DNA from: Cupriavidus oxalaticus
Lineage (GTDB): Bacteria; Pseudomonadota; Gammaproteobacteria; Burkholderiales; Burkholderiaceae
DNA length: 64,000 nucleotides
Reading direction: 5' to 3'
Assembly (NCBI RefSeq): GCF_004768545.1
Contig: NZ_CP038640.1
Coordinates: forward strand, 1-64,000
Part shown: in pieces, positions 9,284 through 29,589 of the stretch
How positions within the stretch are numbered: position 1 is the first letter of the stretch
How the letters are laid out: each line of letters begins with the position of its first letter
Notes under the pieces: model-generated
Databases searched by the model: none
What the model saw: only the letters and a program-made list of their open reading frames with translations
What the model was told of the DNA's origin: nothing
Position numbers and translations under genes: made by a program

Positions 9284-9352
9284 CGGGCATCCTTCATCGT
9301 GAATCAAATCAACATTTGCCGACCTGGCTGTGCGGTGCGTCGACGTCGAACA

Positions 9353-9796
9353 TCAAAGGCTATACGTTCTGCCTGGCGCGCCCGGGCCCGCGGCGACGGA
9401 GAAGGCGGGCCAGTGCAATCCATCGTGCAACGCTATCCATGCGACCCGGACGGCCAGGCCCACGCGCAATCGCGCCGGATCGCACTCGACCAGCCAGCTG
9501 AGGATTCGCAGGCCTTCGTTCAGGTCGACCCAGGCCTGCGTGCGAGGGGCGCCGGACGCCGCCGGCGCGTCCATGCGATCGACGGTCCAGCTTGCCAGCA
9601 CCCCGTCGCCGCTGACCTCGCGCCATTCCAGTCCGCGCCGCCCCGTGTAGACGCTGCCAGGCCGCGGATAGGCCTGCCACTGCCCTGTCTGCGTGCAGAA
9701 CTGGGCCAGCAGCCGCCGCTCGCGCGTGCCCGCCCAGAACGCCGCGGTGTCCATGTAGTGGCCGATGGCCCCATCCGAAGTGCGAGGGCTGTTCAT
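9353..9796 (-). CDS. DUF35-type OB-fold protein, thiolase partner (copy 1)
   Basis: 147 aa. The length, the position four bases overlapped (ATGA) with the thiolase gene, and the layout (helical N-terminus, YPRP, then a beta-rich OB-like half with WTV..AWVDL) fit the DUF35/OB-fold partners of thiolase-like proteins. Those partners usually carry a four-cysteine zinc ribbon near LLAQ..YPRP; here only one Cys is left in that segment (AQFCTQTGQWQAYPRP), so the zinc site seems lost. The last residues (TYSL) lie outside the duplicated block and differ from copy 2 (ER). It probably works as a subunit with the thiolase. Confidence 0.75.
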   Translation of the reverse strand: MNSPRTSDGAIGHYMDTAAFWAGTRERRLLAQFCTQTGQWQAYPRPGSVYTGRRGLEWREVSGDGVLASWTVDRMDAPAASGAPRTQAWVDLNEGLRILSWLVECDPARLRVGLAVRVAWIALHDGLHWPAFSVAAGPGAPGRTYSL

Positions 9797-10959
9797 CGTT
9801 CCAGCACGAGCGCGCTGCTCATCATCCAGGCCCGGCCATAGGCCAGGCCGCCGATGCCCGTGACCAGCGCATTGCGCGGATCCTCGACCTGCGTGGCGCC
9901 GCCTTCGCCCCCGAGCTGGCGCACCGCTTCCACCAGGCCGAGGCCGCCGGCGGCCAGGCCCGGCTGACCCGCGGAGAGTTGACCGCCGCCCGTGTTCAGC
10001 GGCAACTCGCCGCAGAATCTCAGGTCCGTCTGCTCGACGAAGGCGGCGCCTTCGCCCCGGGCGCAGAAGCCCAGCTGCTCCAGCTGCAACAGGACCGCGA
10101 TGGTGAAGTCGTCGTAGAGCTGCAGCATGTCGATCTGCTGCGCAGTCAGGCCGGCCTGCCGCAGCGCGCGCGGACCGGCCTGGACGAAGCCCGACGCGAG
10201 CAGGTCGGGCGGCTGTTCCTGCACATCGTGGTTCGTGCGTTCGGCGTAGCCGGCCAGGCGCACGCAGCGGGACAGCCCCATCGCGGACGCCGTCTCGGCC
10301 CGCATCATCAGGACGCCGTTCGCGCCGTCGCAGAACATCACGCTGTCGAGCAGGCGCATCGGATCGGAGACCTTGCGCGACTGCAGGTAGTCGTCGACGG
10401 CGAGCGGCCTGCGCAGCTTCTCGCACGCGCGCTCGTTGGCCAGCGCGTGCCCGCGCTGCGTGACCACGATCTTCCCCAGCGCGGCATCGGGCGCGCCGTA
10501 ACGCTGTTCGTAAGCGTTTTGGATCAGCGCAAAGAAGCCGGGCGGGCGCGCCATCCCGGTCGGCGCGACGAACTCGTCGTGGTAGCCGCGGAAGCTGGCT
10601 GCGAAGCGGGTGCTGGGCGCGTCGGCGCCGAGCACGAGCGCCACCTTGCAGTGCCCATCGCGCAGCGCCGAAGCGGCAGCGGCTACGGCGGACAGCAGCG
10701 CGCACCCTCCCGTGGTGCCGGTCGCCAGCCAGTCGAGCTCCAATCCCAGCGCGTCCGACATGAAGGCCGCGTGGAAGGGATTGCTGCCCTCGCTCAGCGC
10801 GGCCGTGACCGCCAGCCCGTCGATATCGGCGGGCGCGATGCCGTACTTGCGTGCGAGCTCGTCCAGGACGTCCGCCGCCAGCTCGTAGGCACTTCGACCC
10901 GACCCGAAGACAACGGGTGTTTCGGCATAGCCGCCGATGACGATGTCGGATGCCGCCAT
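9793..10959 (-). CDS. Thiolase-fold protein, SCP2/lipid-transfer type (copy 1)
   Basis: 388 aa. Thiolase superfamily, related to the lipid-transfer (SCP2) thiolases that pair with DUF35 proteins. The nucleophilic Cys region is visible in TTGGCALLSAVAAAASAL. The C-terminal motif normally written GGxLSxGHPxGA reads GGGQLSAGQPGLAAGG, so the catalytic His of classical thiolases is a Gln. That argues against ordinary thiolysis and is compatible with an aldolase-like or other acyl-CoA role, as in Ltp2-DUF35 aldolases. It lies five bases downstream of the ligase gene and overlaps the DUF35 gene by four, so the three form one operon behind tfdA. Confidence 0.8.
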   Translation of the reverse strand: MAASDIVIGGYAETPVVFGSGRSAYELAADVLDELARKYGIAPADIDGLAVTAALSEGSNPFHAAFMSDALGLELDWLATGTTGGCALLSAVAAAASALRDGHCKVALVLGADAPSTRFAASFRGYHDEFVAPTGMARPPGFFALIQNAYEQRYGAPDAALGKIVVTQRGHALANERACEKLRRPLAVDDYLQSRKVSDPMRLLDSVMFCDGANGVLMMRAETASAMGLSRCVRLAGYAERTNHDVQEQPPDLLASGFVQAGPRALRQAGLTAQQIDMLQLYDDFTIAVLLQLEQLGFCARGEGAAFVEQTDLRFCGELPLNTGGGQLSAGQPGLAAGGLGLVEAVRQLGGEGGATQVEDPRNALVTGIGGLAYGRAWMMSSALVLER

Positions 10960-10964
10960 CCGGC

Positions 10965-12506
10965 CTACGCTGCCGCCGACGATGGCGCGATGCTGTCGAT
11001 GTACTGCTGCTTGAGCTTGCGGCGCGCAATCTTGCCGCTGTCTTCGCGCGGCAGCACCGGCATGCTCAGCAAGAACCTGGGGCAACGCAGGCCTCCCAGT
11101 CTGTTCTTGAGCGTGGCCCGCATCGTTTCGAGGTCGACGCGCGCGCCGGCGTGCGGCTCGACCACGAGGACCAGGACTTCGCCGAGGTCCCGGTCGGCGA
11201 TGCCGAAAGCGACGCAATCGCGCACCTCCGGCAACTTCATCGCTTCCTCTTCGAGTTCCGCCGGAAGTATGTTCACGCCGCCGGAGATCACCATGTCCTT
11301 CTTGCGATCGCTGATCCACAGGAAGCCGTCCGCATCCAGATGCCCGACGTCGCCGAGCGTGATCCACTCGCCGCGTCGAAGCTCCGTCAATGCCTCGGGC
11401 CGATTGTGGTAGGTCACCAGATCGGCAACGTCGGCGTGAACGAGGATCTCGCCCTTGTCGCCGATGGGCACCGGATGTCCTTCGTCATCGACGATGGCGA
11501 TGCGGACGCCCTCGGGCGCCTTGCCGACGGTGCCTGGGTGCGACAGCCATTCCTCGGACGTGCAGGTCGCGATCACGCCGATCTCGGTGCCGGCGTAGTA
11601 CTCGATGATGACCGGGCCCCACCAGTCGATCATGGCCTGCTTGACATCGCGCGGGCACATGGCCGCCCCATGCGTCACGGCGCTCAGCGTCGACGTATCG
11701 AAAGCGGCTCTGCGCGCCGGCGGGAGGTCGAGCAGCCGGCTGAACATCGTGGGCACCACATGCATGTGGCTCAGGCGATGGCGCTCGACCAGGTCGAGAA
11801 GATCATCCGCGTCGAAGCGCGGCTGAAGCACCAGGACTTCGCCGAAGCGCAAGCTGTTGAGCGCATAGACATAGGGTGCCGAGTGGTAGAGCGGCCCCGT
11901 CAGCACGGCCCGGATCGGCCGAATCTCTTGCCCGTGCGCCAGACGAACCCTCAGGCCGAACTTCGCCGCGAGCTCGGGCGTGCCGTTGGCGCGCTGCACG
12001 CCCTTCGGGCGGCCCGTCGTGCCGGAGGTATAGAGCAGACTGGCCGGCGCCGCGACCGGCAAGGCCGTCGAAGGCTCCGATGCCTGGAGCCAGCCTTCAT
12101 AGTCGACCGTGCCCGGGTTCGCCGTGCACGACGCATCGGACAGCCGATAGGCCTGCCGGATCTCGGGCGGCGACGCGGCTTCCAGCACCTTGCAGGCCTC
12201 GGGCACCGCGGATGCAACGCCCTTGAGCAGATCGGTGTGCGCGACGAGCACACGCGCTTTGCAGTCCTCGAGGATGAAGGCGATCTCGTCCCGGTTCGCA
12301 TGCCAGTTCAAAGGCACCGCAACGATGCCGGCGCGGTTCGCGGCCAGCGTCATTTCGAGCACCGGAAAGTCATTGCGCATGAGGATGGCGACGACATCAC
12401 CGGGCCTCAATCCCCATGCCGCCAGGCCGCCCGCCGCTCGAAGGACGCGCTGCGCCAAGGTGTCGCCGTCCAGGCTACGGCTGCCGCTGATCAGGGTTGC
12501 GTACAT
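10965..12506 (-). CDS. AMP-forming acyl-CoA synthetase (copy 1)
   Basis: 513 aa. ANL superfamily ligase: ATP P-loop LLYTSGTTGRPKGV, the motif IIEYYAGTE, the GDVGHLDADGFLWISDRKKD hinge region and the catalytic lysine in PREDSGKIARRKLK. It would activate a carboxylic acid to its CoA thioester in the cytoplasm. The substrate is unknown; the position 42 bases after tfdA suggests a phenoxyalkanoic acid or an aromatic acid derived from one. The ATG at 12506 gives a short but usual N-terminus for the fadD/menE-like branch. Confidence 0.88.
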   Translation of the reverse strand: MYATLISGSRSLDGDTLAQRVLRAAGGLAAWGLRPGDVVAILMRNDFPVLEMTLAANRAGIVAVPLNWHANRDEIAFILEDCKARVLVAHTDLLKGVASAVPEACKVLEAASPPEIRQAYRLSDASCTANPGTVDYEGWLQASEPSTALPVAAPASLLYTSGTTGRPKGVQRANGTPELAAKFGLRVRLAHGQEIRPIRAVLTGPLYHSAPYVYALNSLRFGEVLVLQPRFDADDLLDLVERHRLSHMHVVPTMFSRLLDLPPARRAAFDTSTLSAVTHGAAMCPRDVKQAMIDWWGPVIIEYYAGTEIGVIATCTSEEWLSHPGTVGKAPEGVRIAIVDDEGHPVPIGDKGEILVHADVADLVTYHNRPEALTELRRGEWITLGDVGHLDADGFLWISDRKKDMVISGGVNILPAELEEEAMKLPEVRDCVAFGIADRDLGEVLVLVVEPHAGARVDLETMRATLKNRLGGLRCPRFLLSMPVLPREDSGKIARRKLKQQYIDSIAPSSAAA

Positions 12507-12548
12507 CTTGTGGGGCCTTCGCGAAAAGGGCGTGCGCCATGGCGTGCG

Positions 12549-13412
12549 CTAGACGACGGCATCGTCCAGGGTGGTCGCCCGGCGCAGCTCACGCCTGGCC
12601 GAGATGTCGTACCTGCGTCCGCGGTGAAGAACGCAGCGGTTGTCCCACATCACCAGATCTCCCACGTTCCAGCGATGCCGGTACACGAATTCCCGCTGTG
12701 TCGCGTGCTCGAGAAGCTCCGCAAGCAGCATCCGGCCTTCGGCCACCGGAAGGCCTTCGACGTGGCTCGCGTGCGCGCCGATGAAGAGAAACTTGCGCCC
12801 GGAGCCGGCGTGGGTTCGAACCAGCGGCCAGGTGACCGGCGGCATGGCATTGCGTTGCGCTTCCGAATAGTCGGTGTCGCCGAGCAGGAAGCGGGAGTTC
12901 AGTGCGTAGTGCTCGGCACGCAGCCCTTCCAACTCGGATTGGAGGTCCCGAGGCAGCGCGTCGTATGCCGCACGCATGTCGCAGAACTCGGTGTCGCCGC
13001 CCGACGGCGGAACCACCACCGCGGAGAGCATCGAGTAGCGGGCAGCAGGTTGCTGAAAGGAGCTGTCGCTGTGCCAGAGCTGGTTCGCGAAGTTCCCGAC
13101 CACCTCGCGCGCATCGCGTTGCGCGACCTTGCCGTCGAGACTGACGTTCGAGATGTCCGCCAACTCCGCGTACTTGAATCTCGAAGGTCTTTGATTGACC
13201 TTGATGAAACCGCCTTCGAGTGGCCCGAAATTGCGCGCGAAGGCGATCTGCTGATCCTGACTCAGGGGCTGCCCCCGGAACACCAGCACCGACTTCTCGT
13301 CCATTAGCCGTTCGATCTCTCGGACCTCGGTCGAACCCAAGGCCTCTCGAAGGTCGATGTCTTCGACCCCTGCGGCGAAAAGAGGATGAAGGGGATTTGC
13401 GACGACGCTCAC
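12549..13412 (-). CDS. tfdA: 2,4-D / alpha-ketoglutarate dioxygenase (copy 1)
   Basis: 287 aa Fe(II)/2-oxoglutarate dioxygenase of the TauD/TfdA family. It converts 2,4-dichlorophenoxyacetate, 2-oxoglutarate and O2 to 2,4-dichlorophenol, glyoxylate, succinate and CO2. The iron ligands are visible as WHSD (His113, Asp115) and the distal VLHRGRR histidine (about 262); the 2-oxoglutarate-binding Arg follows in RRELRR. Translation starts at a GTG. The sequence looks essentially identical to TfdA of pJP4 as I remember it. It diverges from a TfdR-type regulator and leads the ligase-thiolase-DUF35 genes. It differs from copy 2 at about 21 positions, mostly near the N-terminus. Confidence 0.95.
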   Translation of the reverse strand: MSVVANPLHPLFAAGVEDIDLREALGSTEVREIERLMDEKSVLVFRGQPLSQDQQIAFARNFGPLEGGFIKVNQRPSRFKYAELADISNVSLDGKVAQRDAREVVGNFANQLWHSDSSFQQPAARYSMLSAVVVPPSGGDTEFCDMRAAYDALPRDLQSELEGLRAEHYALNSRFLLGDTDYSEAQRNAMPPVTWPLVRTHAGSGRKFLFIGAHASHVEGLPVAEGRMLLAELLEHATQREFVYRHRWNVGDLVMWDNRCVLHRGRRYDISARRELRRATTLDDAVV

Positions 13413-13530: not shown

Positions 13531-13579
13531 CCATATGGTCTAATACCTTCCATCAGCGCGAGCGATACGGGATCGGTAT
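13531..13579. promoter_or_regulatory. LysR-type operator in the tfdA/tfdR divergent promoter
   Basis: CCATATGGTC, AATACC (13542-13547), 17 bp, then ATAC-N7-GTAT (13565-13579). The spacing equals that of the sites at 157 and 29541. It should control tfdA copy 1 to the left and autoregulate the regulator to the right. Confidence 0.75.
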
Positions 13580-13618
13580 GGCTCTCCGGCAGCCGGAGCC
13601 AGCCACCAGGAGTGAAGA

Positions 13619-14506
13619 ATGGAGTTTCGACAGCTTCGCTATTTCGTTGCTGCCGCGGAGGAGGGCAACGTCGGTGCCGCCGCGCGGCGGCTGCATATTT
13701 CCCAGCCCCCGGTCACGCGACAGATTCACGCGCTCGAACAGCATCTGGGCGTGTTGTTGTTCGAGCGCAGCGCGCGCGGCGTGCAGCTCACGCCCGCCGG
13801 GGCCGCGTTTCTCGAAGATGCACGGCGCATGCTCGAACTGGGTCGGACTTCCGTGGACCGGTCCCGCGCCGCCAGCCGGGGCGAGATCGGCCAACTCGAT
13901 ATCGGCTACCTCGGCACGGCGATCTACCAGACCGTCCCGGCATTGCTCCATGCGTTCACGCAGGCGGTCCCGGGGGCGACGCTGTCTCTGGCCCTGATGC
14001 CCAAGGTGCGGCAGATCGAGGCCCTGCGTGCCGGCACCATCCATCTCGGTGTCGGCCGCTTCTACCCCCAGGAGCCTGGAATCACGGTGGAGCACCTGCA
14101 CTACGAACGGCTGTATATCGCAGCGGGTTCGAGCATTGCGCGCCAGCTGAGACAGGATCCGACGCTGCTGCGGCTCAAGAGCGAGTCCCTCGTTCTTTTC
14201 CCCAAGGAGGGGAGGCCGAGTTTCGCTGACGAAGTGATCGCCTTGATGCGCCGGGCCGGGGTCGAGCCGCGCGTGACGGCGATTGTCGAAGATGTCAACG
14301 CGGCCCTCGGGCTCGTCGCGGCCGGCGCCGGCGTCACGCTGGTCCCGGCCTCGGTGGCCGCGATTCGGCGGCCCTTCGTCCGGACGATGGAGATGGCCGA
14401 TGCGAGCGCCAAGGTGCCGGTCAGCCTGACTTACCTGACCGACTCTCGCGTACCCGTGCTTCGCGCATTTCTCGATGTCGCAAGACGCGGGAAAGGACAG
14501 AAATAG
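13619..14506 (+). CDS. tfdR: LysR-type regulator TfdR/TfdS (copy next to tfdA)
   Basis: 295 aa LysR protein of the chlorocatechol group. It has an N-terminal helix-turn-helix (RQLRYFVAAAEEG, HISQPPVTRQI) and an effector domain with GRPSFADEVI and VEDVNAALGLVAAGAGVTLVPAS. It matches my memory of TfdR/TfdS of pJP4, where two identical copies exist; here the copies (see 29629) differ at about 18 residues. It probably binds the 49-bp element just upstream and activates tfdA with a chloromuconate-type inducer. A short toxin-like remnant follows. Confidence 0.92.
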   Translation: MEFRQLRYFVAAAEEGNVGAAARRLHISQPPVTRQIHALEQHLGVLLFERSARGVQLTPAGAAFLEDARRMLELGRTSVDRSRAASRGEIGQLDIGYLGTAIYQTVPALLHAFTQAVPGATLSLALMPKVRQIEALRAGTIHLGVGRFYPQEPGITVEHLHYERLYIAAGSSIARQLRQDPTLLRLKSESLVLFPKEGRPSFADEVIALMRRAGVEPRVTAIVEDVNAALGLVAAGAGVTLVPASVAAIRRPFVRTMEMADASAKVPVSLTYLTDSRVPVLRAFLDVARRGKGQK

Positions 14507-17351: not shown

Positions 17352-18428
17352 ATGTATCCCAAGAATTTCTGGTACGTCGGCGCGATGAAGCACGAGGTCG
17401 GCCGGCACCTGCTGGCGAGAACGCTGCTGGAGCAGCCGATCGTTTTCTTCCGCCGCATCGACGGCAGCGTGGCCGCGCTGGCCGACCGTTGCAGCCACCG
17501 CCGCATCTCGCTTTCGCTGGGGCGGCTGATCGGAGACGAAGTCCAGTGCGGCTATCACGGCCTCAGCTTTGCCGGCGACGGTTCGTGCACGGGCATTCCG
17601 GGTCAGGCGCGCGTCCCGCCCAGCGCCTGCGTGCGCTCGTACCCGGTGGTCGAGCGCGACGAGTTCGTCTGGTTCTGGCCGGGCGACCCCACGCTCGCAG
17701 ATGAGGCGCTGGTCCCCGACTATTCGGAGATCTGCAGCTCCGGACGCTTCGTCGGCCGGCCCGCCGAACCGCTGCTCGTCGAGGCGCCCTGCCTGTTCAA
17801 CATCGAGAACGTGCTGGACCTGTCCCACGTGACCTATGCGCACCAGGAAACCGTCGGCACGCCCGAGGTGGCGGTCACGCGCCCGACCGTGGACATCAGC
17901 GAGACCCGGGTCCTGGTGACTCGCAACTGGGACCGGGCCTCCACCGGACCTTCGTTCAAGAACCTGTTCGGCTGGGACTTCGTCAAGAACAGCCAGCGCA
18001 TCAGCTTCTGGCCCGGCGCCAACGTGCTGCTGGAAATCGAGGTGGAGCCGGTCGGCAATACCGATCCGGCCCAGATCAAGCGGCTGCGGGTCCCGGGGCC
18101 TTGCACGCCATCCACATCCACTACCCATTTCAAGTTTTCGGCGCTCTATCGCGATTTCCTGCTGGACAACGAAGCGCTGACCGCCGGCATGTTCGAACAG
18201 TTCCGCAAGACCGTGATGGAAGACAAGGTGCTCATGGAGAACCAGCAGAGGAACTGGGCGCTCGACGGCGTGGAGGTCGTTCAGAAGATGGAGCCGTCCA
18301 GCAGCGGCGGAATGATGGACATCGCGGTGGACCATGCGCCGCTCGCCGCGCGCCGTTGGCTTCAGCGGCTGACGATGGCGGAACGGAAAGCGCCGGAGAT
18401 CAGGCTTGCCGAGGTGACGCAAGGCTAG
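17352..18428 (+). CDS. Rieske non-heme iron oxygenase, alpha subunit (VanA/O-demethylase type)
   Basis: 358 aa, the length of single-component-oxygenase subunits such as vanillate or dicamba demethylase. The N-terminal Rieske 2Fe-2S site is C-S-H..CGYH (about residues 43-66). The catalytic mononuclear iron site is NVLDLSHVTYAH (H-x4-H, with the bridging Asp two residues before). AAGGAG lies 9 bases before the ATG. No ferredoxin or reductase gene is adjacent, so it would need one from elsewhere. The stop codon overlaps the stop of the convergent DUF35 gene (18425-18428). Its substrate is unknown; an aryl ether or methoxyaromatic acid is plausible for this branch. Confidence 0.85.
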   Translation: MYPKNFWYVGAMKHEVGRHLLARTLLEQPIVFFRRIDGSVAALADRCSHRRISLSLGRLIGDEVQCGYHGLSFAGDGSCTGIPGQARVPPSACVRSYPVVERDEFVWFWPGDPTLADEALVPDYSEICSSGRFVGRPAEPLLVEAPCLFNIENVLDLSHVTYAHQETVGTPEVAVTRPTVDISETRVLVTRNWDRASTGPSFKNLFGWDFVKNSQRISFWPGANVLLEIEVEPVGNTDPAQIKRLRVPGPCTPSTSTTHFKFSALYRDFLLDNEALTAGMFEQFRKTVMEDKVLMENQQRNWALDGVEVVQKMEPSSSGGMMDIAVDHAPLAARRWLQRLTMAERKAPEIRLAEVTQG

Positions 18429-18865
18429 CGTTCCGTTCTGCCTGGCGCGCCCGGGCCCGCGGCGACGGAGAAGGCGGGCCAGTGCAATCCATCGTGCAAC
18501 GCTATCCATGCGACCCGGACGGCCAGGCCCACGCGCAATCGCGCCGGATCGCACTCGACCAGCCAGCTGAGGATTCGCAGGCCTTCGTTCAGGTCGACCC
18601 AGGCCTGCGTGCGAGGGGCGCCGGACGCCGCCGGCGCGTCCATGCGATCGACGGTCCAGCTTGCCAGCACCCCGTCGCCGCTGACCTCGCGCCATTCCAG
18701 TCCGCGCCGCCCCGTGTAGACGCTGCCAGGCCGCGGATAGGCCTGCCACTGCCCTGTCTGCGTGCAGAACTGGGCCAGCAGCCGCCGCTCGCGCGTGCCC
18801 GCCCAGAACGCCGCGGTGTCCATGTAGTGGCCGATGGCCCCATCCGAAGTGCGAGGGCTGTTCAT
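18425..18865 (-). CDS. DUF35-type OB-fold protein, thiolase partner (copy 2)
   Basis: 146 aa. Identical to copy 1 (9353-9796) up to GAPGRT, then ends ER instead of TYSL because the duplicated block ends there. It overlaps the thiolase gene by four bases and is the last gene of the tfd-II operon. As in copy 1, the zinc-ribbon cysteines expected of this family are not present. Confidence 0.75.
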   Translation of the reverse strand: MNSPRTSDGAIGHYMDTAAFWAGTRERRLLAQFCTQTGQWQAYPRPGSVYTGRRGLEWREVSGDGVLASWTVDRMDAPAASGAPRTQAWVDLNEGLRILSWLVECDPARLRVGLAVRVAWIALHDGLHWPAFSVAAGPGAPGRTER

Positions 18866-20028
18866 CGTTCCAGCACGAGCGCGCTGCTCATCATCCAGGC
18901 CCGGCCATAGGCCAGGCCGCCGATGCCCGTGACCAGCGCATTGCGCGGATCCTCGACCTGGGTTGCGCCGCCTTCGCCCCCGAGCTGGCGCACCGCTTCC
19001 ACCAGGCCGAGGCCGCCGGCGGCCAGGCCCGGCTGACCCGCGGAGAGTTGGCCCCCGCCCGTGTTCAGCGGCAAGCCGCCGCTGAATCTTAGATCGGTCT
19101 TCTCGATGAAGGCGGCGCCCTCGCCCCGGCCGCAAAACCCCATGTGCTCCAGCTGCATCAGGACGGCGATGGTGAAGTCGTCGTACAGCTGCAGCATGTC
19201 GATCTCCTGCACGGTCAGGCCGGCCTGGCGCAGCGCGCGCGGACCGGCCTGGACGAAGCCCGACGCGAGCAGGTCGGGCGGCTGTTCCTGCACATCGTGG
19301 TTCGTGCGTTCGGCGTAGCCGGCCAGCCGCGCGCATTTGGACAATCCCATCGCGGACGCCGTCTCGGCCCGCATCATCAGGACGCCGTTCGCGCCGTCGC
19401 AGAACATCACGCTGTCGAGCAGGCGCAGCGGATCGGAGACCTTGCGCGACTTCAGGTAGTCGTCGAGGGCAAGCGGTCTTCGCAGCTTTTCGCATGCGCG
19501 CTCGTTCTCCAACGCGTGCCCGCGCTGTGTGAGCACGATCTTCCCCAGCGCGGCATCGAGCGCACCGTAGCGCTGTTCATAGGCGTTGTGCAGCAGCGCA
19601 AAGAAGCCGGGCGGGCGCGTCATGCCGGTCGGCGCGATGAACTCGTCGTGGTAGCCGCGGAAGCTGGCTGCGAAGCGGGTGCTGGGCGCGTCGGCGCCGA
19701 GCACGAGCGCCACCTTGCAGTGCCCATCGCGCAGCGCCGAAGCGGCAGCGGCTACGGCGGACAGCAGCGCGCACCCTCCCGTGGTGCCGGTCGCCAGCCA
19801 GTCGAGCTCCAATCCCAGCGCGTCCGACATGAAGGCCGCGTGGAAGGGATTGCTGCCCTCGCTCAATGACGCCGTGACCGCCAGCCCGTCGATCTCGGCC
19901 GGCGCGATGCCGTACTTGCGCACCAGCTCGTCCAGCACGTCCGCCGCCAGCTCGTAGGCGCTTCGACCCGACGCGAAGACGACCGGCGTCTCGGCATGGC
20001 CGCTGATGACGATGTCGGATGAAGCCAT
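18862..20028 (-). CDS. Thiolase-fold protein, SCP2/lipid-transfer type (copy 2)
   Basis: 388 aa, close paralogue of 9793-10959. It has the same Cys region (TTGGCALLSAV) and the same Gln in GGGQLSAGQPG where classical thiolases carry His. That the unusual residue is kept in both diverged copies argues that it is a real property of the family rather than a sequencing error. Differences from copy 1 are scattered and mostly conservative. The start ATG is five bases after the ligase stop. Confidence 0.8.
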   Translation of the reverse strand: MASSDIVISGHAETPVVFASGRSAYELAADVLDELVRKYGIAPAEIDGLAVTASLSEGSNPFHAAFMSDALGLELDWLATGTTGGCALLSAVAAAASALRDGHCKVALVLGADAPSTRFAASFRGYHDEFIAPTGMTRPPGFFALLHNAYEQRYGALDAALGKIVLTQRGHALENERACEKLRRPLALDDYLKSRKVSDPLRLLDSVMFCDGANGVLMMRAETASAMGLSKCARLAGYAERTNHDVQEQPPDLLASGFVQAGPRALRQAGLTVQEIDMLQLYDDFTIAVLMQLEHMGFCGRGEGAAFIEKTDLRFSGGLPLNTGGGQLSAGQPGLAAGGLGLVEAVRQLGGEGGATQVEDPRNALVTGIGGLAYGRAWMMSSALVLER

Positions 20029-20033: not shown

Positions 20034-21575
20034 CTACGCCGCGGCCGGCGATGAGGCCATGCCCTCGAGATAGTGCTGCTTGAGCTTGCGGCGCGCTATC
20101 TTGCCGCTGTCCTCGCGCGGCAGCACGGGCATGCTCAGCACGCGCCTGGGGCCGCGCAGGCGTCCCAGCCGGTTCGTGAGCGTGACGCGCATCTTCTCGA
20201 GGTCGATGCGCGCGCCGGCGTGCGGCTCGATCGCCAGGACCAGGACTTCGCCCAGGTCCCGGTCGGCGATGCCGAAGGCGACGCAGTCGCGCACCTCGGG
20301 CAGCTTCAGCGCTTCCTCTTCGAGTTCCGCCGGGAAGACGTTGACGCCGCCGGAGATCACCATGTCCTTCTTGCGGTCGCTGATCCACAGGAAGCCGTCC
20401 GCGTCCACATGCCCGACGTCACCGAGGGTGAGCCACTCGCCGCGGCGAAGCTCCGCCATCGCCTCCGGCCGCTGGTGGTAGCTCGCCAGGTCGGCAACGT
20501 CGCAGCGAATGAAGATCTCGCCCTTGTCGCCCGTGGGCACCGGCTGCTCGTCGTCATCGACGATGGCGATCTCGACGCCTTCGGGCGCCTTGCCGACGGT
20601 GCCCGGATGCGAGAGCCATTCCTCGGACGTGCAGGTCGCGATCACGCCGATCTCGGTGGCGGCGTAGTACTCGATGATGACCGGGCCCCACCAGTCGATC
20701 ATGGCCTGCTTGATGTCGCGCGGGCACATGGCGGCGCCATGCGTCACCGCCTTCAGCGTCGACGTATCGAAAGCGCGCCTGCGTTCGGGCGCCAGGTCGA
20801 GCAGGCGGCTGAACATGGTGGGCACCACATGCATGTGGCTCAGGCGATGGCGCTCGACCAGGTCCAGGAGTCCGCCCGCGTCGAACTTCGGCTGAAGCAC
20901 CAGGAGCTCGCCGAAGCGCAGGCTGTTGAGCGCATAGACCAGAGGGGCCGAGTGGTAGAGCGGTCCGGTCAGCACGGCCCGGATCGGCCGGATCTCCTGC
21001 CCGTGCGCCGCACGCACCCTCAGGCCGAACTTCGCCGCGATCTCGGGCGTGCCGCCGGCGCGCCGGACGCCCTTCGGTCGGCCCGTGGTGCCGGAGGTAT
21101 AGAGCAGGCTGGCCGGCGCCGGCAGCGGCGGGGCCGTCGAAGGCGCCGAGGCCTGCAGCCAGTCTTCATAGTCGACCGTGCCCGGGTTCGCCGTGCACGC
21201 GGCATCGGACAGCCGATAGGCCTGCCGGATCTCGGGCGGCGGCGCGGCTTCCAACACGCGGCAGCCTGAAGGCACGCCTGCGGCGACCGCCTTGAACAGA
21301 TCGCTATGCGCGACGAGCACGCGCGCTGCGCAGTCCTCGAGGATGAAGGCGATCTCATCCGCATTCGCATGCCAGTTCAAGGGCACGGCCAGGATGCCCG
21401 CGCGATTCGCGGCGAGCATGACTTCGAGGATCGGGAAGTCATTGCGCATGAGGATGGCAACGACCTCGCCCGGCAGCAGTCCCCATGCCGCCAGGCCGCC
21501 GGCCGCTCGCAGGACGCGCTGTTCCAGCGCCTCGCCATCCAGGCTGCGATCGCCGCTGATCAGGGTCGCATGCAT
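20034..21575 (-). CDS. AMP-forming acyl-CoA synthetase (copy 2)
   Basis: 513 aa, same length as copy 1, with all ANL motifs (LLYTSGTTGRPKGV, IIEYYAATE, GDVGHVDADGFLWISDRKKD, catalytic Lys in EDSGKIARRKLK). Many substitutions separate it from copy 1, yet none hits a motif apart from G to A in EYYAGTE, so both look functional. It follows tfdA copy 2 by 21 bp and precedes the thiolase by 5 bp. Confidence 0.88.
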   Translation of the reverse strand: MHATLISGDRSLDGEALEQRVLRAAGGLAAWGLLPGEVVAILMRNDFPILEVMLAANRAGILAVPLNWHANADEIAFILEDCAARVLVAHSDLFKAVAAGVPSGCRVLEAAPPPEIRQAYRLSDAACTANPGTVDYEDWLQASAPSTAPPLPAPASLLYTSGTTGRPKGVRRAGGTPEIAAKFGLRVRAAHGQEIRPIRAVLTGPLYHSAPLVYALNSLRFGELLVLQPKFDAGGLLDLVERHRLSHMHVVPTMFSRLLDLAPERRRAFDTSTLKAVTHGAAMCPRDIKQAMIDWWGPVIIEYYAATEIGVIATCTSEEWLSHPGTVGKAPEGVEIAIVDDDEQPVPTGDKGEIFIRCDVADLASYHQRPEAMAELRRGEWLTLGDVGHVDADGFLWISDRKKDMVISGGVNVFPAELEEEALKLPEVRDCVAFGIADRDLGEVLVLAIEPHAGARIDLEKMRVTLTNRLGRLRGPRRVLSMPVLPREDSGKIARRKLKQHYLEGMASSPAAA

Positions 21576-21596: not shown

Positions 21597-22460
21597 CTAG
21601 GCGACGGCGTCGTCCAGGGTCGTCGCCCGGCGCAACTCGCGCCTGGCCGAGATGTCGTAGCGTCGGCCGCGGTGGAGAACGCAACGGTTGTCCCACATCA
21701 CCAGGTCCCCGACCTGCCAGCGATGGCGGTACACGAACTGGCGTTGCGTCGCGTGTTCGAGCAGCTCCGCGAGCAGCATCCGGCCTTCGGCGACCGGGCG
21801 GCCTTCGATGTGGCCCGCGTGGGCACCGATGAAGAGAAACTTGCGCCCGGAGCCGGCGTGCGTTCGAACCAGCGGCCAGGTGACCGGCGGCATGGCGTTG
21901 CGTTGCGCTTCGGAATAGTCGGTGTCGCCGAGCAGGAAGCGGGAGTTCAGCGCGTAGTGTTCGGCGCGCAGTCCTTCCAGTTCGGACTTGAGGTCGGCGG
22001 GAAGTTCGTCGTAGGCCGCCCGCGTGTCGCAGAACTCGGTGTCGCCGCCCGACGAGGGAACGACCACCGCAGAAAGCATCGAATAGCGGGCGGCGGGCTG
22101 CTGGAATGAGCTGTCGCTGTGCCAGAGCTGGTTGGCGAAATTGCCGACGACTTCACGCGCATCGCGTTGCGCGACCTTGCCGTCGAGGCTGACGTTCGAG
22201 ATGTCCGCCAGCTCCGCGTACTTGAATCTCGACGGCCTCTGGTTGACCTTGATGAAGCCGCCTTCGAGCGGCCCGAAGTTGCGCGCGAAGGCGATCTGCT
22301 GATCCTGGTTCAGGGGCTGCCCGCGGAACACCAGCACCGATTTCTCGTCCATTCGCCGTTCGATCTCCCGGACCTCGGACGGACCCAGGGTGTCTCGAAG
22401 GTCGATGTCCTCGACCTCGCCGACGAAGAGAGGATGAAGGGAATTTGCGACGACGCTCAC
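21597..22460 (-). CDS. tfdA: 2,4-D / alpha-ketoglutarate dioxygenase (copy 2)
   Basis: 287 aa with a GTG start. Same iron and cosubstrate motifs as copy 1 (WHSD; VLHRGRR; RRELRR). About 21 residues differ, for example LFVGEVED in place of LFAAGVED near residue 15 and CDTRAAYDELPADLK near 165. The substitutions avoid the metal site. It sits 16 bp downstream of tfdK in the tfd-II operon, so its expression follows the operon promoter at 29.5 kb rather than its own regulator. The two alleles could differ in substrate range. Confidence 0.93.
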   Translation of the reverse strand: MSVVANSLHPLFVGEVEDIDLRDTLGPSEVREIERRMDEKSVLVFRGQPLNQDQQIAFARNFGPLEGGFIKVNQRPSRFKYAELADISNVSLDGKVAQRDAREVVGNFANQLWHSDSSFQQPAARYSMLSAVVVPSSGGDTEFCDTRAAYDELPADLKSELEGLRAEHYALNSRFLLGDTDYSEAQRNAMPPVTWPLVRTHAGSGRKFLFIGAHAGHIEGRPVAEGRMLLAELLEHATQRQFVYRHRWQVGDLVMWDNRCVLHRGRRYDISARRELRRATTLDDAVA

Positions 22461-22476: not shown

Positions 22477-23865
22477 CTAGCTGACGAGGGGATCGGCGAC
22501 AGGCCCCGCGGGCATGGCGGCGCGCTCGAGGTCCGAGGCTTTCTGAAGCCGGCCGAGCGCGACGACACCGGCGCCGGCCACCAGCAGGGGCGCGGCGGCG
22601 ACGATGAAAAGCGTGCTGATCGAGGCATCGGCGGCGATCAGGATGCCCGCGATGGCCGGGCCGATGATCGATCCGAGCTTGCCGATCGAGATGGCCCAGC
22701 CGACGCCGTTGGCCCGGTTGGCGTTGGCGTAGAACAGGCCCATGGACCCCATCAGGCCGACGTGGCCGCCGAGCACGAAGAAGCCGACGATGAAGAGCAT
22801 CGACAGGAAGGCCGTGTCGGAGAGCGCCATCGAGCCAACCGCGACGACGAAGACCGCCGCGAGCAGCGGAACCGCACCCATCGCGCCGACGCCGAAGCGG
22901 TCGATGAGCCGGCTGGAGAACAAGCCGCCGAATGCGCCGCCCGCCGAGAAGAGGGTCAGGCCGATCGCGGCCAGCGTCGCAGGTCGGCCGGTTCCGACCG
23001 TCAGGACCGGAATCCAGCTCGCCAGGAAGAAGACGGTGACGGAGTTGGCGATGAACGCGAGCCACAGGACCGGCGTGATTCTGGACAGCCGGCCGCTGAA
23101 GAGCGATTTCACGGAATCCTTCCATCCGCCCACCTTGGCTCGGTCTTCTTCGGCTTCGAGCACGAAGCGGGTCTGGGCGTTTGCATGCGCGGAGGGATCG
23201 ATGGCATTGACGATCCGCGCGATCGTGTCGGCGCCTCTGCCTGCGAGCACCAGGTACTTGATGGACTCCGGCAGCGCGATGGCAAGAAGCGGCAGCAGCA
23301 CCAGGGGCGCGAAGCCACCGATGTAGAACAGCACCTGCCAGCCGAACACCGGCACCAGCCAGGCCGCGAACAGGCCGCCGACGCTGATCCCGATGACGTA
23401 GCCGATCATCACGAAGCCGACCACGCTGGCGTGGAAGCGCTTGGGCACGTACTCGACGTTGAGCGCGAAGCAGATGGGCGTGATGCCGCCGATGCCCAGT
23501 CCCGCGAAGAAGCGCAGCGCGGCGAGTTCGGTGACGTTGGTCGCGAGCACCGCGGCCAGCGTGAACGCACTGAAGATGAAGGTGCCGAGCAGGAACGCGG
23601 GACGGCGGCCGATGCGGTCCGCCAGGTAGCCGAACAGGAAGCCTCCCAGCATCACGCCCAGCAGTCCGGCGCTGAAGATGAAGCCGAAGGACGCCTTCTC
23701 GATGCCCCAGCTGGCAATGATCGTCGGCGACGCGAACGCGATCGCCTGCAGGTCATAGCCGTCGCACAGCATGATCAGGAAGGACAGGGCGAGCAGCATC
23801 ACGACCGTGCGGTTCGGCGCTTGCTTCTCGATGACCTCGGTGATGTCGATGGTGGTGTTTTTCAT
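22477..23865 (-). CDS. tfdK: 2,4-D transporter, MFS aromatic acid:H+ symporter family
   Basis: 462 aa, the TfdK length. Twelve hydrophobic segments are predicted by eye. The AAHS/PcaK signatures DGYDLQAIAFASP (first helix), GYLADRIGRRPAFLLGT (loop 2-3 MFS motif) and LPESIKYLVLAGR are present. It would import 2,4-D by proton symport across the inner membrane. The ATG at 23865 directly follows GGAGGAGACAT. Position between tfdB and tfdA repeats the tfdB-II-tfdK order of pJP4. Confidence 0.9.
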   Translation of the reverse strand: MKNTTIDITEVIEKQAPNRTVVMLLALSFLIMLCDGYDLQAIAFASPTIIASWGIEKASFGFIFSAGLLGVMLGGFLFGYLADRIGRRPAFLLGTFIFSAFTLAAVLATNVTELAALRFFAGLGIGGITPICFALNVEYVPKRFHASVVGFVMIGYVIGISVGGLFAAWLVPVFGWQVLFYIGGFAPLVLLPLLAIALPESIKYLVLAGRGADTIARIVNAIDPSAHANAQTRFVLEAEEDRAKVGGWKDSVKSLFSGRLSRITPVLWLAFIANSVTVFFLASWIPVLTVGTGRPATLAAIGLTLFSAGGAFGGLFSSRLIDRFGVGAMGAVPLLAAVFVVAVGSMALSDTAFLSMLFIVGFFVLGGHVGLMGSMGLFYANANRANGVGWAISIGKLGSIIGPAIAGILIAADASISTLFIVAAAPLLVAGAGVVALGRLQKASDLERAAMPAGPVADPLVS

Positions 23866-23918
23866 ATGTCTCCTCCAGGTGATCGTGATCGGCGCTTGCC
23901 GATCGGGCTTGTCCGGCT

Positions 23919-25679
23919 TCAGTGCGCGCAGAGCGCGCGCCCGAGCGCCGCGCGAAGCTCGTCGCCCGAGCTCTTTGACCACTGCATGGAGCGCCAGCAG
24001 ATGATGTTGTCGGGCCGCACCAGCAGCGCGCCGCTCTCCTCGATCTCGCGCACACGGGCGAAGTCGCCGTACAGGTCCTCGAGCTCCTGGCCCGGGCCGA
24101 TGATGTGCACGTCCAGGCCGATGCCGAGCGATTCCGCGGCGTGGCTCGCGGCCTCGAGCCACGGCGATCCGGTGATGCCCGAGAGCAGGCTGAAGCGCCC
24201 CTTGCCGCAGAGGTCGAGCGTCGACACGCGGCGGCCATGCCGCGTGAGCCAGACGTGCGGCACGGGCGCGCCGGGGCGGCTGCTGTGCTCGTGGTAGAGC
24301 TCCGCGTCGCGGCGGAAGCCCGGGTCCGGCGTCTCGTCCGCCGCGATCGCCGCAGAGCGATAGCGCTGGTTCATCTCGACGCCGTGGGCGTTGTAGACGT
24401 ACTGCGTGTTGTCGATGGCGGCGCGCAGTGCGGCGCGCTGCGCCTGCGCCTCAGGGCTCTGTTCCTTCAGGCGGGAGATGTTGCGCTGCATCTGTTCCGG
24501 GTCCTGGGTGTCGAACAGTCCCAGCGCGGCGAGGATCGGCGGGAAGTCGCCCAGGCTCTTGTTCGCGCGCTGCACCACCTGCTTGGCCACCGGCGCGCGC
24601 TCCTCGTCGTAGGTGGCGAGCAAGGCCGGCCCGGCTTTTCCGCGCAGGACGTGGGAGAGCTTCCAGCACAGGTTGAACGCGTCCTGGATCGAGGTGTTCG
24701 AGCCCAGGCCATTGGTCGGGGGATGCCGATGGACCGCGTCGCCCATGCAGAACACGCGCTTGTCGAACAACCGCGTGGCGTACATGTCGTTCACCGTCCA
24801 GGTCGAGGTCGACTCGATCTTCACCGGGATCGTCGAGTCGCCCAGCAGCGAGTGGACGATCTGGCGCGCATGCGCTTCGTCGACCGCCGGCGTGCCGTCG
24901 GCGATCTCGTAGCCCCAGATGCAAAGCCACTTGTTCCACGGCCGGACCATGCGGATGACGCCGATGCCCAGGCCGCCGACGCTGGAGCCCGGCTGGATCA
25001 CCCAATACAGGACGCTCGGCCGGTGGCCCACGTAGGCGGTCAGGTCGGCCTCGAACACCACGTTGATCGATCCGGAGACGCCCATCTTTCCTTCGACCGG
25101 CAGGCAGACCTGGTCCACGACGCGGGAGTTCGCGCCGTCCGCCCCGATGAGGTACTTGGCGCGGATGTCGTACTGGCGGCCCTGCAGGTGGTCGTGCACC
25201 GTCGCCGTGACGCCCGCATCGTCCTGCTTCAGGGAAACGAACTCGGTGTGAAAGCGCACGTCGGCGCCGCGCCGCGCCGCGTTGTTGATGAGGATCGGCT
25301 CGAGCAGGTTCTGCGGCAGATCGCACATGCGCGTGGGCGAGGCCAGGTCGTAGTCGGCCCGGCGCTGCGGGTGCGTGCCCCAGGTCAGCACCCGGCCCAG
25401 TTCGTCGCCGACCAGGCTCGTGCAGTAGACGTTCTCGCCCATCAGCTCGGCCGGGGAGGCCATCGTTTCGCACTCGGCCTCGATCCCGAGGTCGCGCATC
25501 ACTTCCATCGTGCGCTGGTTCGTGATGTGCGAGCGGGGCGTGCGCGAGGTGGTCGCGTATTTGCTGACGCACAGTGTCTTCACGCCATAGGTCGCGAGAA
25601 GCAAGGCCGAGGCGGCCCCGGCAGGACCGCTGCCGACGACGAGGACGTCGGTTTCGACGGTGCTGGTGGGTTCGTTCAT
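23919..25679 (-). CDS. tfdB: 2,4-dichlorophenol 6-monooxygenase (tfd-II copy)
   Basis: 586 aa FAD monooxygenase. FAD GxGxxG (VVGSGPAGAASAL) near residue 15, YLIGADGANSRVV near 185, and FCMGDAVHRHPPTNGLG near 305. It is clearly diverged from the copy at 5820 throughout, so it is the tfd-II isoform, not a recent duplicate. AAGGAGAC precedes the ATG at 25679. The 53-bp spacer to tfdK contains no terminator that I can see, so they are probably cotranscribed. Confidence 0.94.
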   Translation of the reverse strand: MNEPTSTVETDVLVVGSGPAGAASALLLATYGVKTLCVSKYATTSRTPRSHITNQRTMEVMRDLGIEAECETMASPAELMGENVYCTSLVGDELGRVLTWGTHPQRRADYDLASPTRMCDLPQNLLEPILINNAARRGADVRFHTEFVSLKQDDAGVTATVHDHLQGRQYDIRAKYLIGADGANSRVVDQVCLPVEGKMGVSGSINVVFEADLTAYVGHRPSVLYWVIQPGSSVGGLGIGVIRMVRPWNKWLCIWGYEIADGTPAVDEAHARQIVHSLLGDSTIPVKIESTSTWTVNDMYATRLFDKRVFCMGDAVHRHPPTNGLGSNTSIQDAFNLCWKLSHVLRGKAGPALLATYDEERAPVAKQVVQRANKSLGDFPPILAALGLFDTQDPEQMQRNISRLKEQSPEAQAQRAALRAAIDNTQYVYNAHGVEMNQRYRSAAIAADETPDPGFRRDAELYHEHSSRPGAPVPHVWLTRHGRRVSTLDLCGKGRFSLLSGITGSPWLEAASHAAESLGIGLDVHIIGPGQELEDLYGDFARVREIEESGALLVRPDNIICWRSMQWSKSSGDELRAALGRALCAH

Positions 25680-25703
25680 GAAGTCTCCTTGTTGGCAGGT
25701 TGT

Positions 25704-26783
25704 TCAGGCCGGCATCTCGCCGGCATGGGCGGCGCGCAGCAGGCGGGCGATGTCTTCGCGGCGCGCAGGGCGCGGATTCGCGTAGGCATCGGCGAGCGCG
25801 CGCTCGGCGGCTTCGTCGATGCCGTCCGAGGGCATGCCGATCGCAGCCAGGGATGTCTTTGGACAGGTGGCTTGCAGCAAGTCATGCAGGGCCGCGCCGG
25901 CGCCGCGCGAGGCCGGCGCGCCGAGGGCGGCCGCGACGCGTCCGAGCTCGGCAGGCGCGGCCGCCTCGTTGAATGCCGCCACATGCGGCAGCAGCACGGC
26001 GTGCATCGGCCCATGGGGCAAATCGAAGCGGCCGCCGAGCACGTGGCAAAGCTTGTGGTGCAGGCCCATCGAGACCATGCCCAGCACCGTCCCTGCCAGC
26101 CAGGCGGCGTAGAGCGTCTGCGCGCGTGCGGCGAGGTCGTCCGGCGAATCGACGGCGGCCGGCAGTCCTTGCGCCATCGCCCGGATGCTTTCTTGCGCCA
26201 GCAGCATGGTGATCGGATTGCCGTCGGGCGCGTACATCGCCTCCACGGCGTGGGCGATCGCGTTCATGCCGCTCGGGCCGGTGACCTCCGGCGGCAGCGA
26301 GCGCAGGTGCTGCGGGTCATAGAGCACGGTGCTGGGCAGCACACGGGGATCCCGGCCCGTGCGCTTGACGCCGTCGGCGCTCAGGCCCCAGATGGGTGTC
26401 ATCTCCGAGCCCGCATAGGTGGTCGGCAAGGCGAGGTAACGCATCCCGTGATGCAGCGCGAGCGCCTTGGCCAGTCCGATGGTCGAGCCGCCGCCGACCG
26501 CCACCAGCAGGTCCGCGTCGGCGTCCCGGACCACCTGCGCGGCGCGCTTCACCGTCGCTTCCGGCACGTGCATGACGGCGCCGTCATGGATGCCCGCGCC
26601 CCGCGCGCCGAGATCGCCGAGCACCCGGCCCGCCAGATCGTGCTGGTCCGGCGTGCAGAGCACCAGCGCCCGTCGCGCGTCCAGGCGCTCGACCTCCGCG
26701 AGGACCTGCCCGGTCGATCCGGCGCCGAAGACGACCCGGACCGGCCAGAAGCGCGCAACGAAGTCATTCAGTTCGCCGTGCAT
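25704..26783 (-). CDS. tfdF: Maleylacetate reductase (tfd-II copy)
   Basis: 359 aa. The iron-ADH-fold motifs GGGSTIGLAKALALH (nucleotide binding), TTYAGSEMTPIWG and MGLHHKLCHVLGGRFDLPH are present. It catalyses the NAD(P)H-dependent reduction of chloromaleylacetate (with chloride loss for 2-chloro forms) and of maleylacetate. The start codon immediately follows the tfdE stop (TGAATG), which indicates translational coupling. Full family length, no lesion. Confidence 0.93.
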   Translation of the reverse strand: MHGELNDFVARFWPVRVVFGAGSTGQVLAEVERLDARRALVLCTPDQHDLAGRVLGDLGARGAGIHDGAVMHVPEATVKRAAQVVRDADADLLVAVGGGSTIGLAKALALHHGMRYLALPTTYAGSEMTPIWGLSADGVKRTGRDPRVLPSTVLYDPQHLRSLPPEVTGPSGMNAIAHAVEAMYAPDGNPITMLLAQESIRAMAQGLPAAVDSPDDLAARAQTLYAAWLAGTVLGMVSMGLHHKLCHVLGGRFDLPHGPMHAVLLPHVAAFNEAAAPAELGRVAAALGAPASRGAGAALHDLLQATCPKTSLAAIGMPSDGIDEAAERALADAYANPRPARREDIARLLRAAHAGEMPA

Positions 26784-27491
26784 TCAGGTCTCCAGCAGGC
26801 TTGCCGTGCCGAGGTCCAGGCCGCGCCGCGCCATGGCTGCGCGTGCCGTGTCGGTCGAACCGAGATCGGCCAGGAAACCGTGGCCCGCGCCCTGCATCAC
26901 GTGCAGGTCGATCGCGTTGTTCGCGCGGGCCTGCGCCTGCAGCCGCGAGAGGTTCTGCGGACCCAGCAGCGCGTCCTCGTCGCCGACGACGACCGTGTGC
27001 CGCGCCCGGACCTGCGGCAGATAGTCGAACGGGACGTCCAGCGGATCGCGGTTCTCGAGGCCCTGCGGAAAGGGGTAGTAGGCGACGAGGCGCGACACGA
27101 CCTGCCGTCGCGCCAGCTCGAAGACGAAGAGCCCGCCGAGGCAGAAGCCCGCCACGCCGTCGATGCCCTGGCCGGCGATGAAGCCGATCAGTTCCTCGAC
27201 GTAGGTGCGGTCTGCCAGTCGATGACGTCGCTGGAAGGCGGCCTCCCGCGTCGGCACGGCCAATTCGCCGAAGGGCGCGAACGGGTCCGCCAGGAGCACT
27301 TCGCTGGCACCCTGGGCCGCGAGGTACGCGGCATAGCCGCGATAGAAGGCATTGCAGCCGTAGATGTCCGGCAGCACGAGGAGGCGAGGGCCCCGGGTCG
27401 CGCCGGCGTAGCGCAGGGCGCAGATGGCACCGTCGATGCTCCCCGTGGAGGCGGTCTGCGGGAACAGCGCGGGAGCGGTGTCGTGGCACAT
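26784..27491 (-). CDS. tfdE: Dienelactone hydrolase (tfd-II copy)
   Basis: 235 aa. The triad reads Cys in GFCLGG, Asp in VVVGDEDALLG and His in GAGHGFL. The N-terminal half (LLVLPDIYGCNAFYRGYAAYLA) carries an Asp instead of the QEIFG oxyanion segment of the tfd-I enzyme, placing this protein in the TfdE-II branch. It sits 21 bp after tfdC and abuts tfdF. Cytoplasmic. Confidence 0.9.
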   Translation of the reverse strand: MCHDTAPALFPQTASTGSIDGAICALRYAGATRGPRLLVLPDIYGCNAFYRGYAAYLAAQGASEVLLADPFAPFGELAVPTREAAFQRRHRLADRTYVEELIGFIAGQGIDGVAGFCLGGLFVFELARRQVVSRLVAYYPFPQGLENRDPLDVPFDYLPQVRARHTVVVGDEDALLGPQNLSRLQAQARANNAIDLHVMQGAGHGFLADLGSTDTARAAMARRGLDLGTASLLET

Positions 27492-27512
27492 GGGCGGCAG
27501 CCTCTCGCGGTC

Positions 27513-28274: not shown

Positions 28275-28317
28275 GGGGTTCTCTCTTGAAGAAGATGAAT
28301 CGGATGGATGGAAGGTC

Positions 28318-29540: not shown

Positions 29541-29589
29541 CCATATGGTCTAATACCTTCGATCAGCGCCAGCGATACGAGATCGGTAT
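29541..29589. promoter_or_regulatory. LysR-type operator in the tfd-II/tfdR divergent promoter
   Basis: CCATATGGTC, AATACC at 29552-29557, 17-bp spacer, ATAC-N7-GTAT at 29575-29589. It differs from the 13531 site at only a few bases. It lies in the 111-bp gap between tfdD and tfdR and should serve the ten-gene tfd-II operon. Confidence 0.78.

Follow-up and report, generated by a model that had tools for sequence, protein, structure and literature searches.

Among the enzymes in which a thiolase fold works together with a DUF35 protein, the steroid side-chain aldolases Ltp2 and Sal are among the closest described systems. According to the accessible text of PMC12329534, Ltp2 employs Tyr294 of a YDHF motif and Tyr344, while Sal carries Gly at the nucleophile position, uses Tyr302 and Cys304 of YDCY for catalysis and has Gln352 where Ltp2 has Tyr344; Ala, Ser and His variants of Sal Cys304 were without detectable activity. 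In a different context, a 2019 regulon paper (PMC6449761, in the portion available) named three genes of plasmid pJP4 and predicted a beta-ketoadipyl-coenzyme A (CoA) synthetase and thiolase of lower 2,4-dichlorophenoxyacetic acid (2,4-D) metabolism.

Here we analysed the counterparts of these genes in a stretch of 64,000 nucleotides from Cupriavidus oxalaticus (assembly GCF_004768545.1, contig NZ_CP038640.1, positions 1 to 64,000; "the window" throughout), in which tfdA is followed twice by genes for an acyl-CoA ligase, a thiolase-fold protein and a DUF35 protein (the trio). On the sequence evidence we see about an even chance that the trio encodes a CoA ligase together with a retro-aldolase of two subunits (thiolase fold with zinc-less DUF35), an old and accessory partner of tfdA switched by TfdR/TfdS, and not a Claisen thiolase. 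The host genome comprises 7,968,737 bases on 7 contigs with the window on contig 7, and since the window also carries TrfA, conjugation genes and a tfd set we regard it as part of an IncP-1-type catabolic plasmid. The two gene sets are the following:

12549..13412, minus strand: tfdA copy 1 (2-oxoglutarate dioxygenase), pJP4 type; start GTG; TauD 1.1e-71 (Pfam)
10965..12506, minus strand: acyl-CoA ligase copy 1; AMP-binding 4.3e-61 (Pfam); PRK12406 subfamily
9793..10959, minus strand: thiolase-fold protein copy 1; start ATG; Thiolase_C_1 7.8e-42; G85, YDDF 282-285, Q327, Q332, G370
9353..9796, minus strand: DUF35/OB partner copy 1; OB_ChsH2_C 9.8e-16, above cut-off; zf-ChsH2 below cut-off; zinc CxxC absent
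21597..22460, minus strand: tfdA copy 2, pDB1 type; 93% to copy 1; dS 0 to pDB1
20034..21575, minus strand: acyl-CoA ligase copy 2; 84.8% to copy 1 over 506 aa; identical protein in pDB1
18862..20028, minus strand: thiolase-fold protein copy 2; 92.5% to copy 1
18425..18865, minus strand: DUF35/OB partner copy 2; 100% to copy 1 over 144 aa; stop at 18425

Intergenic distances in the order tfdA-ligase-thiolase-DUF35 amount to 42, 5 and -4 bp in copy 1 and, as calculated from the coordinates, to 21, 5 and -4 bp in copy 2, and none of the eight frames contains an internal stop codon. The first-pass annotation of this DNA had placed both tfdA copies at the head of an operon with 4-42 bp spacing; the gene sets and the close spacing are borne out, but only copy 1 leads its operon, copy 2 of tfdA being the seventh gene of the co-directional run tfdD-C-E-F-B-K-A-ligase-thiolase-DUF35. 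TfdA copy 1 is 99.3% identical to pJP4 TfdA and contains H114-x-D and a distal H263 in VLHRGR, the HxD...H iron site. The ligase of copy 1 scores 799.2 bits against the PRK12406 subfamily (curated cut-off 701) and possesses both the ATP-binding motif and the C-terminal Lys motif of AMP-forming acyl-CoA ligases.

Active-site residues of the thiolase-fold protein and its DUF35 partner

The alignment of the thiolase-fold protein comprised seven relatives and eleven thiolase-fold proteins from the host, one of them PcaF. At the PcaF positions the nucleophile Cys is replaced by Gly85, NEAF by YDDF (282-285), the His of GHP by Gln332 and the Cys of CxG by Gly370; the signature of Claisen or beta-ketoadipyl-CoA thiolases (nucleophile Cys, GHP His, CxG Cys) is absent, and six of the ten other host proteins display Cys and GHP as in PcaF. 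In 89 of 90 aligned rows (85 different sequences, window copies included) G85, Y282, D284, Q327 and Q332 are all kept, the exception in each case being the outgroup L078 (31%), in which both 282 and 332 are His. Residue 86 is Cys in 72 of the 90 rows and Ser in Bradyrhizobium RD5-C2.

With Ltp2 and Sal the window protein shares the Tyr of YDxF/Y (Y282) and the Gly in place of the nucleophile Cys (G85); furthermore, PDB entry 9myr, which is Sal according to the data section of PMC12329534, lines up with it at YDxx, Q327 and Q332. The second catalytic residue (Tyr344 of Ltp2, Cys304 of Sal) is missing, the window protein having Asp284 and Gln332. The DUF35 partner shows no CxxC within its first 75 aa in 69 of 70 rows, again with L078 as the exception, and lacks the zinc finger (Cys4 or Cys3His) of the Ltp2/Sal type. 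The assignment of the pair to the Ltp2 kind, as suggested from the first reading of the letters, appears sound, and of the two modes then named, retro-aldol or thiolytic, the residues point to retro-aldol. Thiolytic cleavage is disfavoured by Gly, Gln and Gly standing in for Cys, His and Cys.

In the proposed mechanism the ligase would convert a carboxylic acid into its CoA thioester, and the thiolase-fold protein, presumably in complex with DUF35, would split a 3-hydroxyacyl-CoA. Tyr282 would take the proton of the beta-hydroxyl, the C-C bond would break to give an aldehyde (or ketone) and the enolate of a short acyl-CoA, and the proton may be given back by Asp284 or by a water that Gln holds. 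Probably expressed together with the 2,4-D genes through TfdR/TfdS, the module might thereby trim an aryl or aryloxy acid at its side chain, either ahead of TfdA or in parallel with it, and would be dispensable for 2,4-D itself.

The gene set on tfdA plasmids and beyond

The whole four-gene set occurs on pJP4 and pEMT1 (96.5% DNA identity), pEMT3 (95.7%) and pDB1 (91.1%), as well as in draft genomes of C. pampae, Paraburkholderia terricola and Bordetella petrii. Because the same order is repeated on pJP4, pEMT1, pEMT3 and pDB1 it is not a matter of chance, which agrees with the initial view of ligase, thiolase-fold protein and DUF35 as a joint module with tfdA. The set itself is neither new nor special to the window, and the "undescribed" CoA-dependent branch of the first-pass annotation has to be withdrawn as such, since a CoA role for these genes had been predicted in 2019 (PMC6449761, available portion). 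Phenoxybutyrates and phenoxypropionates, among the substrates that it suggested, are hypothetical candidates. Neither "CoA" nor "synthetase" turned up in the main text of two later tfd papers (PMC10531765 and PMC11507517), and no further discussion of the three genes was found in the literature searched, which left out subscription papers including the pJP4 sequence paper.

The two window copies differ in origin. Copy 1 matches pJP4 in tfdA and ligase (dS 0) and copy 2 matches pDB1 in both (dS 0). Comparison in 200-column steps revealed that copy 1 is 99-100% pJP4-like from upstream of tfdA to ~10,830 and then mostly pDB1-like, one step near 10,228 matching either lineage poorly (0.93 and 0.91); compared with the pJP4 operon, which has the same four genes in the same order, copy 1 hence turns pDB1-like within the thiolase gene. 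Copy 2 is pDB1-like with pJP4-like patches within its own thiolase gene. Copies from two plasmid lineages with switched tracts indicate that two modules met on one plasmid and swapped sequence, and a recent tandem duplication of the four genes is ruled out. The recombination tract of copy 1 spans window positions 9365-10900.

Among eight plasmid records with TfdA of at least 80% identity, four carry the trio and four do not (pAKD25, pAKD26, pIJB1 and pEST4011, with tfdA at 84-85%), so that a requirement of the trio for TfdA function is ruled out. A search of 10.9 kb uncovered, ~1.3 kb behind tfdA in pEST4011 and pIJB1, the tail of a DUF35 protein (residues 98-142 at 55%, E 2e-11), which is not annotated as DUF35:

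8171-8311 of the pEST4011 locus (L012): DUF35 C-terminal stub
8177-8317 of the pIJB1 locus (L115): DUF35 C-terminal stub

No such tail was present in the stretch searched of pAKD25 and pAKD26, whose likeness to pEST4011 stops before it. The stub implies that the trio probably stood behind the common ancestor of these tfdA genes; judged from the sequences, the trio looks ancestral and lost in one lineage, although the stub may instead derive from some other DUF35 gene.

A genome scan returned 65 loci with relatives of the thiolase-fold protein. The nearest relative without tfdA beside it, a Limnohabitans metagenome-assembled genome (MAG; L019), has a thiolase at 78% in the scan; relative to pJP4 its ligase, thiolase and DUF35 are at 73%, 80% and 70%, and a 42% TfdA-like match lies on another of its contigs. 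The 58 distant loci (L020-L080 without L049, L078 and L080) were inspected for neighbours, genes beyond the available DNA being counted as absent (before the gene two loci offer <1.2 kb, and behind it two offer <2 kb). DUF35 is the neighbour in 57, with a ligase behind in 48 and a crotonase immediately before the gene in 30; NitT transport genes were found in 32, acyl-CoA dehydrogenases in 27, UbiD in 20, SDR in 19 and aldehyde dehydrogenase in 15. A crotonase directly before the aldolase in 30 of 58 fits hydratase followed by aldolase, and the order of steps at these loci may be hydratase, aldolase, then aldehyde oxidation and decarboxylation. The widespread cluster type, which varies in completeness, consists of NitT transporter, crotonase, YDDF aldolase, zinc-less DUF35, ligase, paired acyl-CoA dehydrogenases and UbiD/UbiX. 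At 1e-20, TfdA-like matches appeared at two of the 58 loci (31 and 33%) and Rieske proteins 26-30% CadA-like at five. The former are TauD/TfdA-like proteins of two alphaproteobacterial MAGs, ~6-7 kb upstream of the aldolase (L065 at 1407, L066 at 387).

Relatives were also counted in sampled genomes. Among the matches listed, with at most four candidates scored per genome, the order gave one thiolase match in 399 genomes at E 1e-90, the window's own; at 1e-110 the family gave six in 398 (the window's own, two at 92%, three at 51-52%) and the Limnohabitans family three in 399 (one at 78%, two at 49-51%). On these samples the trio is ruled out as a fixture of Burkholderiales chromosomes. The genus of RD5-C2 gave eight matches in 265 genomes at 1e-110 (RD5-C2 and seven at 46-53%), with ~4 kb of each available. 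The YDDF/zinc-less branch occurs in many soil and marine Proteobacteria, metagenome relatives reach 65-72% identity (P0005-P0015), and 69 pattern matches in viral contigs yielded no relative. L049 forms a long branch at an open fork of the tree, its placement not being firm, and a TfdA match at 65% was located in an unannotated stretch of B. cenocepacia.

Bradyrhizobium RD5-C2 shows the order tfdB (65.6%), ligase (28%), thiolase (53%), DUF35 (44%), tfdF, LysR, tfdD, tfdE, tfdC, AraC, CadA, with a tfdA-like gene (48%) on another contig. It is the only one of 82 loci with a match to tfdB, tfdC, tfdD or tfdF at 1e-20, where 17 of these loci (L096-L112) cover only ~4 kb each and the DNA of L016-L018 starts ~0.1-0.2 kb before tfdA. 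As far as the available text of PMC8446748 goes, "three ORFs", left unnamed, separate tfdBa from the remaining tfd genes, and most of the activity on 2,4-D comes from the cad1 cluster next to them. A gene set travelling apart from tfdA and free of phenoxyacid context, the finding named at the outset as speaking against a link, was thus encountered for L019 and the 58 distant loci (no tfdA beside it and no phenoxyacid genes in the stretch examined), but not for RD5-C2, where the pair sits in a chlorophenoxyacetate cluster with CadA.

Regulation, constraint and competing explanations

The window was searched for the operator motif AKACC-N5-GGTAT given in the available portion of PMC6449761. Seven matches were obtained against a mean of 1.4, and 0 of 100 shuffles reached seven; the matches correspond to four places (three counted on both strands), the fourth of which (13929) lies inside the LysR gene. 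The sites and the genes around them are:

13565..13579: palindromic AKACC-N5-GGTAT-type site (one mismatch; CatR/ClcR/TfdR-type), in the interval separating tfdA copy 1 from the divergent LysR gene
29575..29589: site of the same type, one mismatch, upstream of tfdD, where the run ending with copy 2 begins
191-205: site of the same type, one mismatch, the third place
13619..14506, plus strand: TfdS-type LysR regulator, transcribed away from tfdA copy 1; protein identical to the LysR regulator that adjoins tfdA on pJP4
22477..29517, minus strand: tfdD-C-E-F-B-K, co-directional, upstream part of the copy 2 run

A crude scan of 9200-13700 gave no promoter- or terminator-like site. For pJP4 versus pDB1, omega (NG86) is 0.085 for tfdA, 0.289 for the ligase, 0.228 for the thiolase and 0.536 for DUF35. 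Comparison with Limnohabitans gave 0.15-0.16 for the ligase and 0.14-0.19 for the thiolase, and the nearly identical DUF35 copies gave ~1, on very few changes. The three genes are accordingly constrained, less so than tfdA.

Several other features surround the two sets. A 198-aa frame directly behind copy 1 DUF35 (8711-9307, minus strand) has no Pfam or NCBIfam match. A VanA-like Rieske oxygenase gene (17352-18428, plus strand) converges on copy 2 DUF35 and overlaps its stop; a Rieske gene occupies the equivalent place in pJP4, pEMT1, pEMT3 and pDB1, and none was seen adjoining copy 1. At 15558-16733 (minus strand) a chimeric frame has an IclR regulator's N-terminal part fused to an enoyl-CoA hydratase, and over the first 423 bp it is a 99% inverted copy of the IclR gene at 14691; a chimeric gene or ORF31-ORF32 pair of such type has been described for pJP4 (PMC11507517 and PMC6449761, available portions). 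A muconate cycloisomerase frame without most of its N-terminal domain (2790-3635, plus strand), probably a partial tfdI copy, is followed downstream by dienelactone hydrolase, Fe-ADH and FAD monooxygenase genes.

Several points weigh against a retro-aldolase. Four of the eleven host proteins (L122-L125) show Gly at the nucleophile position and YDxF yet keep a His near 332, and as they share YDxF with no assigned function, this motif alone is no proof. The plasmid forms retain Cys86, one residue off the nucleophile position. Position 284 is Asp where Sal needs Cys304, which leaves the acid step unexplained, and the operon is without an obvious step forming the beta-hydroxyl, a step that would have to come from TfdA, from the crotonase of pJP4 or from the host. 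Finally, the weaker constraint on the three genes than on tfdA would also fit a decaying passenger. Such a passenger, a module from an earlier, unrelated pathway of the tfdA donor that does nothing for these plasmids and is on its way out, we consider less likely than a retro-aldolase but a quite real possibility. In its favour, two of the four trio-less tfdA plasmids retain only the DUF35 tail, omega of the trio is 2.7 to 6.3 times that of tfdA (pJP4 versus pDB1), and E. coli was given tfdABCDEF for complete 2,4-D degradation (PMC12584615, available portion). Against it, the window copies, pJP4, pEMT3 and pDB1 are free of internal stops, the ligase motifs are present, although the A7 pattern is unmatched in pEMT3 and Limnohabitans, omega stays <1 between pJP4 and pDB1, and recruitment in RD5-C2 was separate.

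The published prediction that the genes serve lower 2,4-D metabolism as beta-ketoadipyl-CoA synthetase and thiolase strikes us as rather improbable and less likely than a retro-aldolase. Beyond the prediction itself (PMC6449761, available portion), operator-like sites are common to the trio run and the tfd genes, the RD5-C2 trio adjoins tfdF, and the cad transposon of Sphingomonas ERG5 has pcaIJ and pcaF (PMC3877037, available portion), so that mobile clusters do carry the beta-ketoadipate step. Set against this are the Gly-Gln-Gly replacements and a pcaF already present in the host (above the family cut-off, contig C1) with pcaI 0.7 kb away; in addition, many relatives lie among crotonase, acyl-CoA dehydrogenase, UbiD and NitT genes, the relatives having been searched for tfdA-F and cadA, not for other beta-ketoadipate genes. 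Glyoxylate is a product shared by the TfdA and CadA reactions. An aldolase running in the joining direction, which would combine this released glyoxylate with the acyl-CoA made by the ligase, would suit the presence of the trio beside both TfdA and CadA, and aldolases of thiolase fold do handle aldehydes (PMC12329534, available portion). It is nevertheless very improbable, as most relatives have no such oxygenase in the stretch examined (TfdA-like in 2 of 58, CadA-like Rieske in 5 of 58) and pEST4011-type plasmids manage without the trio.

TfdA, the textbook enzyme of 2,4-D degradation, is not known to have an assigned natural substrate. Distinctly doubtful, in our estimate, is the idea that TfdA arose not as an aryloxyacetate cleaver but as the enzyme that opened a CoA pathway of three steps by hydroxylating a plant aryl acid, followed by the ligase and by the YDDF aldolase/DUF35 to give aldehyde and acyl-CoA, and that the 2,4-D plasmids took the whole operon and use its first enzyme only. 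Should its partners prove to be an aldolase module instead of a beta-ketoadipyl-CoA thiolase as predicted, they would indicate the class of acid to look for as the natural substrate; a YDDF, zinc-less branch would be added to the thiolase-fold aldolases and the "thiolase" label on model plasmids corrected.

Comparison with described systems

The window resembles in architecture the "plasmid5" described in PMC10531765 and PMC11507517 (a tfdI part, tfdII with tfdA, tfdSA, in the portions available), and the two are probably the same. The RD5-C2 tfd-cad1 cluster places ligase, aldolase and DUF35 beside tfdB, tfdF, tfdR, tfdD, tfdE and tfdC, but its ligase is just 28% identical and CadA takes the place of TfdA. 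Since this ligase belongs to another branch, either the pair acquired a ligase on two occasions or one ligase displaced another; chance and function are not separable from this single case.

Sal/Shy-DUF35, the bile-acid aldolase (CtSal, PDB 9MYR), and Ltp2/ChsH2-DUF35 (PDB 6OK1) share with the window pair the thiolase fold with DUF35, the Tyr of YDxF/Y and the Gly at the nucleophile position, and Sal Gln352 is matched by a Gln. In contrast to both, the window protein has YDDF instead of YDCY or YDHF, its DUF35 is free of the zinc CxxC and is a separate protein rather than part of a hydratase, a ligase is included in the operon, and loci of this type have tfd or NitT/UbiD surroundings, not steroid genes. 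Because of the Asp at the Sal Cys304 position we do not file the window protein as Sal or Ltp2 and propose only that it may work like one. The benzoylsuccinyl-CoA thiolase BbsAB (PDB 7PXP) is likewise a thiolase/DUF35 pair and a sequence relative of the window pair, but at the aligned positions BbsB has HDxF and GHP, whereas the tfd protein has YDDF and GQP.

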